In this document: in pieces, positions 12,631 to 62,440 of the stretch
How the letters are laid out: each line of letters begins with the position of its first letter
How positions within the stretch are numbered: position 1 is the stretch's first letter
NCBI RefSeq assembly: GCF_014931715.1
Contig: NZ_CP063164.1
Location: 1,488,001 to 1,552,000 of the forward strand
Source: Sulfurovum indicum
Lineage (GTDB): Bacteria > Campylobacterota > Campylobacteria > Campylobacterales > Sulfurovaceae
Direction: 5' to 3'
Length of the DNA stretch: 64,000 nt
The notes under the pieces: model-generated
Seen by the model: only the letters and a program-made list of their open reading frames with translations
The model's database searches: none
What the model was told of the DNA's origin: nothing
Translations under genes and position numbers: made by a program

Positions 12631-13119
12631 TTACTCTATTAGTTTTAATCTACCCAAAAGTCCTGCTGTGGTGGTATAGCCTACCTCAGCAAACCTCAGC
12701 TTCCCTTCTGCATCATAGATAAAGGTAGTAGGGAAAACCCGTATATGAAACTGTTTCGCCCAACTTCCGTTCTCATCGTTCAATACCCTGAAATGCAGAC
12801 CGTTCTTTTCCATATAGGCATTGACCGCCGCATTCTCTCCGGAATTCACCGCAACAGTCAAGACTTCATACTCTTTGGAAAGGGTCTCAATATTGGACGC
12901 TTCGATCTGACACACCCTGCACCATGTTGCCCAAAAATGCAGAAGAACAGGCTTCCCTCTTTTCAACGTGTACAGACTGCCGTCAAGGAGTGTCACAGTT
13001 ACCGGAGGAAGTTGTTCAGAGGAGAGGTCCGGCTTTCGAAGATAACTTATAATATTAGATAATATAAATAGAACTGTCATGCCTATTGCGATCTCTCTGA
13101 ATATTTTTTTCAGTTTCAA
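12631..13119 (-). CDS. TlpA/ScsD-like membrane-anchored thioredoxin-fold protein
   Basis: 162 residues: an N-terminal membrane anchor (IAIGMTVLFILSNIISYL), then a thioredoxin fold with active site WATWCRVCQ and the cis-proline region VFPTTFIYDAEG. It would face the periplasm and reduce or shuttle disulfides, for instance in cytochrome c maturation or protection of copper- or peroxide-damaged proteins. The frame opens with TTG at 13119, only about 10 bases past the stop of a truncated copy of the fructosamine-kinase gene; an internal ATG at 13080 would remove half the anchor. In the ancestral order it probably followed the intact kinase gene now at 18278. Confidence 0.82.
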   Translation of the reverse strand: MKLKKIFREIAIGMTVLFILSNIISYLRKPDLSSEQLPPVTVTLLDGSLYTLKRGKPVLLHFWATWCRVCQIEASNIETLSKEYEVLTVAVNSGENAAVNAYMEKNGLHFRVLNDENGSWAKQFHIRVFPTTFIYDAEGKLRFAEVGYTTTAGLLGRLKLIE

Positions 13120-13129
13120 TTCTCTGACC

Positions 13130-13302
13130 CTACACCTTCAACGTTTTCAGACACTGTTCCAGTGCTCCGACATAAGAGCTGCCGTAAAATGCAGCATACA
13201 CCAGCAAAGAATAGATCTGATAAAGCGGTATTTTCACGTCCTCAAAAGCCTTGCTGAGGAAATACACTCCGGTACAGTATTCAAAAAAGACCTCTCCAAA
13301 GG
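13130..13302 (-). pseudogene. Duplicated 3' end of the fructosamine-kinase gene
   Basis: On the minus strand this stretch encodes the last 55-60 residues of the kinase that is intact at 18278-19132, ending with the same YGSSYVGALEQ-type tail and stop codon. Hand alignment over about 178 bases gives close to 88 percent identity, and similarity runs on into the 15 bases after the stop. It has no start and no upstream part of the gene: similarity stops sharply near 13302. It marks the left edge of the glycoside-hydrolase segment. Confidence 0.8.
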
Positions 13303-18077: not shown

Positions 18078-18277
18078 AACTAACAAGTGACCAGATCAGT
18101 TTACACTGGTATGGAGAAGACGATATACAATGCGTTATCACTCTTGTGTACTTTATTGACCTATTTCCAGTTATGATTTTTCACTAAGAGCAAAATAACA
18201 AATTCACAGATAAGAATGAAGAAAAGATCATCAAGAACAATGAATACCCCGTCTTTATAGATTTCAATTTCCCTACC

Positions 18278-19132
18278 CTACACCTTCAACGCTTTCAGAC
18301 GCTGCTCCAGTGCGCCGACATAAGAGCTGCCGTAAAGTGCAGCATGCACCAGCAAAGGATAGATCTGATAGAGCGGTACTTTCACATCCTCAAAATCCTT
18401 ACTGAGGGAGTGTACCCTGGTATAGTATTCAAAAAAGGTATCTCCAAAGGTATCAAAAAGCAGAATGAATGCCAGCTCCATCTCCCTGTCTCCAAAATAG
18501 ATCGCAGGATCGATCAGTACTGTATCTTTAATATTAAACAATATGTTTCCACTCCACAGATCTCCGTGAAGCAGTGAGGGAGTGATGGCGGAGATATCGA
18601 TACGCTTGTAAAGATCCCGACATAAACCGTCAAGCCTATCTGTCATCTCCTTGGAGATCACCCCTTTCTCATAACATATCCTGACCATAGGCATGATACG
18701 CATCTGCCCAAGGAAAAGTGCCCAGTTGTACTGTGTCTGTTCATTGATCTGCCCAAACGGTCCTATTGTAGTATCGTAATAGTAGCCGTACATTCTGCTT
18801 TCATTTGTGATACTGTGAAGACGTGACAATACTTTTGCCGCTTCAACCTCCTGTGTACACCGGGGTACCCTGCTCTCTTCGATGAATTCCATCAGCAGGT
18901 GTTGTTCGGAAACATCAAAGAGTGTGGGAACCCGTATTTCATATTTGTTAATATCTGACAACATCTTTGCCTCTGTATAGAGTCTTGAGGTAGGTTCAGA
19001 GGTTTTTAGGAGATATTTATGCATGGAGGTTTGCAAAGTATAAACAGGACCTATCTGGCCCTGGGTCAAAAAATCTGTAGAGACTATCTTATCATTAAGA
19101 AGATCTTGAAAATATGCTGTATCTATCTGCAC
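18278..19132 (-). CDS. Fructosamine kinase family protein (ketosamine-3-kinase-like)
   Basis: 284 residues with the aminoglycoside-phosphotransferase/FN3K fold: LLHGDLWSGNILF carries the catalytic Asp and Asn, and VLIDPAIYFGDREMELAF is the family metal-binding DPA(I/V)YYGDRE signature. Members phosphorylate ketosamines or ribulosamines on glycated proteins and small molecules so that the sugar falls off. About 60 codons of the 3' end are repeated at 13130-13302, on the far side of the glycoside-hydrolase segment, so the DNA between is an insertion next to this gene. Confidence 0.88.
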   Translation of the reverse strand: MQIDTAYFQDLLNDKIVSTDFLTQGQIGPVYTLQTSMHKYLLKTSEPTSRLYTEAKMLSDINKYEIRVPTLFDVSEQHLLMEFIEESRVPRCTQEVEAAKVLSRLHSITNESRMYGYYYDTTIGPFGQINEQTQYNWALFLGQMRIMPMVRICYEKGVISKEMTDRLDGLCRDLYKRIDISAITPSLLHGDLWSGNILFNIKDTVLIDPAIYFGDREMELAFILLFDTFGDTFFEYYTRVHSLSKDFEDVKVPLYQIYPLLVHAALYGSSYVGALEQRLKALKV

Positions 19133-20631: not shown

Positions 20632-21138
20632 CTACCAAAATCTTTCCACTTCGATCAACCCTGCTATGCCTTTATAATCCCTTGCAGAACTATATCGCCA
20701 ATGTACCGCTTCGTCGACATATCCCCTTTTGACTGGATTTTGATGAATATACGCTATCTTGGATATCATCATGGCATCTGTCTGTATCAGTTTTGGCTGA
20801 TATCCCTCTTCCCATACTTGATAATTTGTTGCTTTATGATGTGCTTTTTTATAAAACTGAAATTGCTCTAAAATAGTTTTGGCATTCTCTTTTTTCAATA
20901 GCTCCAAAAGTGCTTTTGCTGTATATTGTTTGAACGATTTCATACTTTTTTCGACATCATCACTTTGTATTACATAAGCATAGAGTTTTAAGTGATCTTT
21001 TTTTTGTAAAAACCGAAGAGAATCTATGACGATTTGTACACTCTCTTTGCGTGTAAAAAGTGGCAACCAATGAAGCACTGTACATGTCACAAAATGTGGA
21101 TGCGTCGGTTCATATACTTTGTATCTGCTTCTTCCCAT
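20632..21138 (-). CDS. REP-associated tyrosine transposase (RAYT), HUH segment deleted
   Basis: 168 residues of the TnpA_REP/Y1 transposase family: N-terminal MGRSRYKVYEPTHPHFVTCT, then LKLYAYVI, a FKQYTAKALLELLKKE helix, and the C-terminal YIHQNPVKRGYV with the candidate catalytic Tyr, ending HWRYSSARDYKG. In family members the segment after (L)YAYVI reads like MPNHxHLI, giving the His-hydrophobic-His metal site; here YAYVI runs straight into QSDDVEKSMKSF, an in-frame loss of about nine residues that removes both histidines. The protein should be catalytically dead as a nuclease. It is bracketed by inverted REP hairpins at 20590 and 21191, the expected substrate of this enzyme family. Confidence 0.85.
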   Translation of the reverse strand: MGRSRYKVYEPTHPHFVTCTVLHWLPLFTRKESVQIVIDSLRFLQKKDHLKLYAYVIQSDDVEKSMKSFKQYTAKALLELLKKENAKTILEQFQFYKKAHHKATNYQVWEEGYQPKLIQTDAMMISKIAYIHQNPVKRGYVDEAVHWRYSSARDYKGIAGLIEVERFW

Positions 21139-21221
21139 GATTTTATTCTATCGATATTGGGCTTATTGGTTTATTGAATTTGAGGTATGCATTCCATATC
21201 GGGAGATATGGAACGAGTAAA
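20990..21221. repeat. 232-bp direct duplication, left copy
   Basis: Covers the first 49 codons of the RAYT gene, its upstream region and the REP at 21191. It matches 21900-22131 base for base at a constant offset of 910, except one difference found by eye (T at 21151, G at 22061). The near identity indicates a recent event. Confidence 0.9.
21191..21214. repeat. REP palindrome, family 1, copy 2
   Basis: ATTCCATATC and GATATGGAAC around a GGGA loop, 9-bp arms, inverted relative to copy 1. It is followed by GAGT and lies just before the promoter of the toxin gene. Confidence 0.85.
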
Positions 21222-21864: not shown

Positions 21865-21900
21865 TTACTCGTTCCATATCTCCCGATATGGAACGAGTAA
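21865..21900. repeat. REP palindrome, family 1, copy 3 (extended)
   Basis: TTACTCGTTCCATATC and its exact inverse GATATGGAACGAGTAA flank a TCCC loop: 16-bp perfect arms, the longest of the four copies. It abuts the right-hand 232-bp duplication with no gap and may be a fusion of two REP half-ends. Confidence 0.88.
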
Positions 21901-21903
21901 AGT

Positions 21904-22048
21904 GATCTTTTTTTTGTAAAAACCGAAGAGAATCTATGACGATTTGTACACTCTCTTTGCGTGTAAAAAGTGGCAACCAATGAAGCACTGTACATGTCAC
22001 AAAATGTGGATGCGTCGGTTCATATACTTTGTATCTGCTTCTTCCCAT
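21904..22048 (-). pseudogene. Truncated RAYT copy (5' end only)
   Basis: Encodes the first 48 residues of the RAYT at 21138, identical through LRFLQKKDH, then breaks at the duplication border and runs into REP copy 3 in another sequence. It has no catalytic part. The break lies about eight codons upstream of the place where the full-length copy has lost its HUH motif. Confidence 0.88.
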
Positions 22049-22100
22049 GATTTTATTCTAGCGATATTGGGCTTATTGGTTTATTGAATTTGAGGTATGC

Positions 22101-22124
22101 ATTCCATATCGGGAGATATGGAAC
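22101..22124. repeat. REP palindrome, family 1, copy 4
   Basis: Same sequence as copy 2 (GGGA loop, 9-bp arms, GAGTAA after it), carried by the right duplication. It forms the border between the mobile block and the AT-rich unknown genes. Confidence 0.85.
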
Positions 22125-22179
22125 GAGTAAACCAACTATTATAAATATTACGAAATAAAGTATCATTAATTATATGTAT

Positions 22180-39054: not shown

Positions 39055-39131
39055 GTTATGAAGCCTGAGCAGTTTTGCTTTCTCAAAACCTAAAATATAT
39101 GTTTCTGTTCTTTTTTTGTCAATAGTCTTAT

Positions 39132-39397
39132 GGGCACCTCTAATAACCCCATACGCCCATAATGGGTTTTGCAGATGTGAGATTTTGCAAGAGGCTTTCA
39201 AGTCCTAGCCAAAGCTAAGACGATGGAAGCATCTTGTGAAAGATCGCGTCTGCAAAGCCCACCCCTTTGGGCAATGCCGGCTTTGCCCTATGCGGCGTTA
39301 CACTTTTTCGACTTAGCTACGGCTAGGTCTGTAAAGTGTGCCTTGCCTAGAACAAAGCCGGCAATGTTATGAGCATATGGGGTTATTAGAGGTGCCC
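39132..39397. mobile_element. MITE, copy 1 (22-bp TIRs, TTAT target duplication)
   Basis: 266 bp bounded by perfect inverted repeats beginning GGGCACCTCTAATAACCCC (22 bp in all) and flanked by TTAT on both sides (39128-39131, 39398-39401). No open frame of note. The interior folds on itself: an imperfect stem of about 36 bp between GGGTTTTGCAGATGTGAG and its inverse ending GTCTGCAAAGCCC, and a second nested hairpin with arms GCCGGCTTTG / CAAAGCCGGC around ACACTTT ... AAAGTGT. A near-identical copy is at 62117. The right end lies 18 bases before the next start codon. Confidence 0.93.
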
Positions 39398-39415
39398 TTA
39401 TGATAAAATAAGGAT

Positions 39416-62058: not shown

Positions 62059-62116
62059 ACTGTTCCCCTGTATAAATATAGGGAAGATTATAGCGAAAAA
62101 GGAGTTATAGACTTAT

Positions 62117-62381
62117 GGGCACCTCTAATAACCCCATACGCCCATAATGGGTTTTGCAGATGTGAGATTTTGCAAGAGGCTTTCAAGTCCTAGCCAAAGC
62201 TAAGACGATGGAAGCATCTTGTGAAAGATCGCGTCTGCAAAGCCCACCCTTTGGGCAATGCCGGCTTTGCCCTATACGGCGTTACACTTTTTCGACTTAG
62301 CTACGGCTAGGTCTGTAAAGTGTGCCTTGCCTAGAACAAAGCCGGCAATGTTATGAGCATATGGGGTTATTAGAGGTGCCC
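62117..62381. mobile_element. MITE, copy 2 (22-bp TIRs, TTAT target duplication)
   Basis: 265 bp, identical to the copy at 39132 except for one missing C in a C-run and one G/A difference found by eye. TIRs GGGCACCTCTAATAACCCC are perfect, TTAT flanks both sides (62113-62116, 62382-62385). It lies between the UbiD-type gene and hemC, 60 bases upstream of the former's start and in its probable promoter region. Confidence 0.93.
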
Positions 62382-62440
62382 TTATACTGATCCTTGAAAA
62401 ACAGATACGATACAGCTATACTTTACTCTGCGGTAAAGTA

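Follow-up and report, generated by a model that had tools for sequence, protein, structure and literature searches.

A MITE of Sulfurovum indicum with IS5-type ends and a Y-shaped, covarying interior that recurs across the Campylobacterales

Introduction

Bacterial MITEs are usually regarded as decayed insertion sequences (ISs). Named examples are Nezha, RUP and NEMIS (PMC3733652), and the REPs are 20–40 bp palindromes tagged with GTAG/CGTC that are thought to be moved by Y1 tyrosine transposases (PMC3733652). For the vent and sediment Campylobacterota nothing similar to the element studied here was found described in the literature searched: the papers covered, most subscription papers lying outside their scope, yielded no account of a MITE from Sulfurovum, from Arcobacter or from the Campylobacterota as a whole, and a search for papers containing the TIR strings returned none that was relevant. 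We have analysed a window of 64,000 nucleotides from the chromosome of Sulfurovum indicum (NZ_CP063164.1, positions 1,488,001 to 1,552,000), in which a sequence-only reading had proposed a recently moved MITE with an elaborately folding interior, and have compared it with the complete chromosome, with further genomes of the genus and with genomes of the order.

Results

The element occupies positions 39132–39397 of the window, and both its length of 266 bp and its perfect 22-bp TIRs are as the sequence-only reading had described them. The left TIR, GGGCACCTCTAATAACCCCATA (39132–39153, plus strand), is the outer strand of a terminal stem and is identical over its first 17 bases to one end of an IS of the IS5 family found in relatives, the right TIR (39376–39397, minus strand) being its exact reverse complement; the target duplication TTAT adjoins it on the left (39128–39131) and on the right (39398–39401). 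The near-identical second copy that had also been noted measures 265 bp (62117–62381) and lies between TTAT at 62113–62116 and TTAT at 62382–62385, with two differences from the first, namely the loss of one C from the CCCC at the centre and a single G-to-A change. At this second site several relatives have the same two flanking genes adjacent to each other, with a short spacer and without the element. No ORF of 60 aa is contained in the 266 bp, and the report of no inverted repeats by a repeat scan of the window is an effect of its 40-nt minimum, not a sign of their absence.

The window holds other repeats as well. A perfect 232-bp direct repeat is present at 20990–21221 and 21900–22131, 910 bp apart, and within its first copy lies the 5' part of an ORF of 168 aa (20632–21138, minus strand) which by eye looks like a REP-associated tyrosine transposase (RAYT) and which gave no match in Pfam. 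A second direct repeat, of 86% identity, links 13114–13302 with 18262–18450; the latter overlaps the end of a 284-aa kinase-like ORF, and the former looks like a truncated duplicate of the end of that gene.

The complete chromosome of 2,209,694 bp carries 23 full copies with 97.7–100% identity, together with three partial or deleted ones. TIRs are present in all full copies, exact 4-bp target duplications flank 21 of the 23, mostly A+T-rich (for example TTAT, ATAT, TTAA and TAAA), and according to simple ORF calls no copy in this genome lies inside a long ORF. Further copies and target duplications are thus both plentiful rather than lacking, and the recent movement that had been read from two copies is well supported; by every defining feature tested the element is a MITE. 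The same chromosome also has isolated TIR-like ends of 12–15 bp, e.g. near 380077, 795998, 1013861 and 2166075, four of which show at most one mismatch, against a roughly estimated chance expectation of about 0.2. Neither a partner end nor a transposase was found for these isolated ends, which are probably remnants, possibly of excision or deletion.

The complete genome contains no DDE_Tnp_1 (PF01609) gene and no relative of two transposases used as queries, and therefore the current mobiliser is either missing from it or unrecognised. Genes of the DDE_Tnp_1 type are present in 23 of 78 genomes of the genus, and their loci were scanned for ends. In one of these (L292, genome G060) an IS5-family gene is followed by ...GGGTTATTAGAGGTGCCC, which is the exact TIR of the MITE; the locus is at a contig edge that cuts off the left end, so that a single IS end is visible. 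Its protein scores 172 bits against the NCBIfam model IS5_4 (NF033581, cut-off 140) and, like that of L293, is assigned by NCBIfam to the IS5 family. A pseudogene of the L292 transposase in genome G030 (L321) is accompanied by GGGTACCTCTAATAACCC adjoining TTAT. As a separate observation, an IS1182-like transposase gene in G060 (L313, C205/C206) ends in GGGCACCTCTAAAAACCC; in that genome this end may be common to two IS groups.

Three TIR types are common to IS elements and to copies of the MITE core. The first, GGGCACCTCTAATAACC, is found on IS5-family elements of relatives and on the MITE itself. The second, GAACCCTCTGATTAACC, delimits complete IS5-family elements with 4-bp duplications (L291, L293) in several genomes of the genus and recurs on core copies, clearly in L127 and partly in L087. 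The third, AGACTTCTTGCATAACC, bounds an IS of about 908 bp on both sides in G346. It also occurs, variants included, on core copies of families f4, f16 and f20, part of which have 3-bp ANT-type duplications. About twelve IS copies in G427 bear GAACCCTCTGAACAA, to which GAACCCTCCGAACAA on the core copy of that genome is nearly identical. Beyond the TIRs no similarity between IS ends and core was seen by eye, a comparison that for the GGGCACC type relies on the one visible IS end and on two other IS types. The interior thus shares nothing evident with IS5-family transposons, and on this comparison the MITE is not a simple deletion derivative of a parent IS: parent-type ISs do exist, and the transposase remnants by which an interior could have been explained away do not appear in shared sequence. 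As for a parent transposase, IS5-family elements with the same TIR were found in relatives and further copies of the MITE in the own genome, but no such transposase in the own genome. A parent in the form of TIR pairs with identical 4-bp flanks at most 7 kb apart was also sought in the fetched loci; none was obtained, the search yielding short deletion versions of 50–241 bp and one chance pair of 330 bp.

The predicted fold of the element is far more stable than expected from its composition, as the reading of a folding interior had anticipated. As RNA it reaches −163.2 kcal/mol, compared to −80.4±4.8 for dinucleotide shuffles (z −17), being extreme on both strands, and with DNA parameters −87 compared to −33.9. 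When 43 diverse copies are aligned, one structure accounts for them, consisting of terminal stem, left arm, mini-hairpin and right arm. On the plus strand, the left arm (39164–39260) is an imperfect hairpin of about 97 nt and the most conserved part; it is interrupted by a symmetric 2x2 GA/GA internal loop (halves at 39181–39182 and 39242–39243) and ends in the tip TAGC-CAAA-GCTA (39206–39217), whose TAGC stem is near-invariant. It is followed by the central mini-hairpin CCC..GGG (39262–39271), paired in 100% of cells, and by the right arm (39276–39362), an imperfect hairpin that is a diverged inverted duplicate of the left one (71% inverted match, measured in one copy of the own genome) and carries the mirror image of its tip, TAGC-TACG-GCTA (39314–39325). 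In two genomes, G266 and G362, the covariance model built from the left arm (R1) picks up the right arm too, on the opposite strand.

In this alignment 97.4% of the cells assigned to pairs are paired, compared to 35–46% for slid structures, and double compensatory changes are present at 46 of 96 base pairs, counted over sequences as cells and not as independent events. The covariation score of 0.262 was reached by none of 500 shuffles (0.109±0.004). Most strongly kept are the TAGC-NNNN-GCTA tips, the GA/GA loop (31 of the 43 copies, the others being one change away), the CCC..GGG mini-hairpin and several T-G pairs, of which 32/242, 45/117 and 56/106 persist in nearly all copies. Clearly, the evidence from covariation for a fold of the interior is strong, and we infer that selection acts on the fold rather than on the sequence as such.

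Compensatory changes may nevertheless arise without selection, as imperfect palindromes can be corrected by template switching at replication. The element could accordingly be an ordinary MITE whose interior is passive filler, its fold going back to an ancient inverted duplication and its covariation to palindrome correction or conversion between copies. The arms are indeed inverted duplicates with a 71% match, such correction is known for long quasi-palindromes, and the internal-deletion versions of 50–241 bp retain the same TIRs and duplications. Correction should however remove mismatches, whereas nearly every copy has retained the GA/GA loop together with several T-G pairs, and this speaks against it as the whole story. 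The loop moreover recurs in other families, conservation of the interior exceeds that of the TIRs, the opposite of what is expected of filler, and a length of 264–272 bp is nearly constant across families for most full-length copies. We thus regard a passive interior as very unlikely.

The distribution of the element bears on the same point. It is present in 44 of 78 genomes of the genus with 75–95% identity and a nearly constant length of 266 bp. Between TIR types the TIRs are 40–66% identical and the arms 82–89%, the interior being better kept than any other part. When named genomes were scanned for the TIR pattern, the hits came almost exclusively from assemblies of Sulfurovum, Nitratifractor and other Campylobacterota. 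At a threshold of E≤0.001, a search of 399 genomes of the order with the R1 model found the left arm in 97 genomes from 26 of 87 genera and ten families, with many E values below 1e-14, and the order-wide covariation supports the view of the sequence-only reading that the structure goes beyond what a passive deletion derivative would need. Most of the distant copies fetched have TIRs and target duplications. Elements only 48–61% identical to the window copy refold in most cases into the same Y shape, the exceptions being L377, whose right arm differs, and L393, whose fold is weaker; most folds from distant families also have the GA/GA loop at the corresponding position. Single-arm versions of 161–164 bp are also present among them. 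Phage sequences gave no match to the element, and plasmids gave one (L447), on the 395-kb plasmid NZ_CP087125.1 of Sulfurovum mangrovi, where a diverged core copy (71% over 198 bases) lies between TCA-cycle genes.

Several shorter forms were recorded as well. Family f20 (L395, L397, L398, L404, L405, L407 and L413) has a single-arm core of about 164 bp with AGACTT-type TIRs. Mini-elements, among them L161, L197, L204, L214 and L247 of about 50–57 bp, comprise little beyond two TIRs, with the 4-bp duplications intact in most, which would suit either a loss of the arms at the site itself or mobility of TIR-only elements; the TIR-to-TIR remnant L154 is shorter still. L144 (G009) and L149 (G033) have GGGCACCTCTAATGCTTCGAAGCGGGGTGCT or a near-identical string at one place per genome, which is a different short palindrome with its first 13 bases in common with the TIR.

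A distinct aspect of the fold is the way in which pairs deviate on each side. Comparing G-T with A-C cells, the ratio is 33:3 in the left arm, 4:18 in the right arm and 28:42 in the terminal stem, a separate strand-neutral count giving 54 to 48 overall; as these cells are not independent events, the ratios are a lead rather than proof. The pattern is mirror-symmetric: whichever strand is read, G-T is tolerated in its 5' arm and A-C occurs in its 3' arm. A single selected RNA should show an excess of G-T over A-C throughout its strand, and in the right arm this is reversed; a single-strand RNA gene is therefore disfavoured. The pattern agrees with a structure that either strand has to be able to form, with which RNA and single-stranded DNA are both compatible. 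An intrinsic/U-tract terminator and a sigma-70-like promoter were sought inside the element and neither was found.

These observations weigh on the proposal that the core represents a mobilised host gene for a trans-acting noncoding RNA, like a bacterial SINE. The kept loops and tips, the covariation, several T-G (G-U) pairs on the plus strand and a lower energy of this strand in 61 of 67 copies would agree with it. The reversed bias of the right arm does not favour the plus strand alone, though, the element has no promoter-like site inside, Rfam 15 at gathering score returned no family (sub-threshold chance matches were of weak microRNA-type and other kinds) and no fixed single-copy host locus was identified, all of which makes a host RNA gene distinctly unlikely.

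The core could also serve as an insulator, a terminator or an mRNA-processing cassette, whose hairpins would limit read-through or be cut by RNase III on co-transcription, a kind of role known for NEMIS-type MITEs. The lack of copies within long ORFs in the own genome is in agreement with such a role, and mirror-symmetric arms would be workable in either orientation. Against this, the element has no U-tract terminator and the arm sequence is kept beyond the needs of a generic hairpin, so that we consider this explanation unlikely.

Discussion

Taken together, we consider it probable that the element is a non-autonomous transposon moved by IS5-family transposases and built around an old Y-shaped core selected for its structure. 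A DDE transposase of the IS5 family would recognise the TIR and move the MITE in trans. Insertion would take place in DNA rich in A+T, for the most part between genes, and generate a 4-bp duplication. The interior of about 210 bp would be an old core under selection and not a leftover transposase gene, with the TIR terminal stem, two mirror-related imperfect hairpin arms of about 90–100 nt and the mini-hairpin between them making up the Y. Such a core would have spread through the Campylobacterales by accompanying several IS5-family groups as their satellite, its outer 20 bp or so matching each of them.

Most likely, though unproven, is that the fold works in cis as a single-stranded structure which either of the two strands can form. 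The G-T and A-C pattern is what would be expected if RNA read in from one side or the other, or each DNA strand when single, had to fold its first arm. The benefit would lie in better survival of insertions in gene spacers or in better transposition. That the core acts as RNA from both directions is a serious possibility which we hold tentatively, and action as a DNA hairpin or cruciform is one to which we attach more doubt; what remains of our expectation falls to neither. It is likewise conceivable, short of being our expectation, that an ancient two-armed fold selected on both strands, selfish or serving the host, has repeatedly taken the ends of unrelated IS5-family groups across the order, as a bacterial counterpart of SINEs. 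The interior is the part best kept and has outlived changes of its own ends, and the role of structure in a non-autonomous element, be it in transposition, in spacer survival or as RNA, becomes testable.

Among known systems, MITEs such as Nezha, RUP and NEMIS resemble the element in being short and non-coding, with TIRs, target duplications, many copies and ends shared with ISs; here, unlike in those, an interior of about 210 bp is conserved in structure across at least ten families, above the level of the TIRs and with several TIR types. The IS5-family ISs (NF033581 IS5_4; Pfam DDE_Tnp_1) have the same TIR, be it GGGCACCTCTAATAACC, GAACCCTCTGATTAACC or AGACTTCTTGCATAACC, and those with GAACCCTCTGATTAACC also the same 4-bp duplication length, but the element has no transposase gene and no interior similarity to them seen beyond the ends, so that it is at most their satellite. 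REP/BIME sequences with their RAYTs (PMC3733652) are likewise palindromic, intergenic and mobile, and differ from the 266-bp element with TIRs and 4-bp duplications, which does not have the defining traits of a REP/RAYT system. Eukaryotic SINEs, by analogy only, likewise combine a structured non-coding core with the use of enzymes of other elements; the present element, in contrast, moves by DNA transposition, with TIRs and target duplications and with no RNA-copying step implied.
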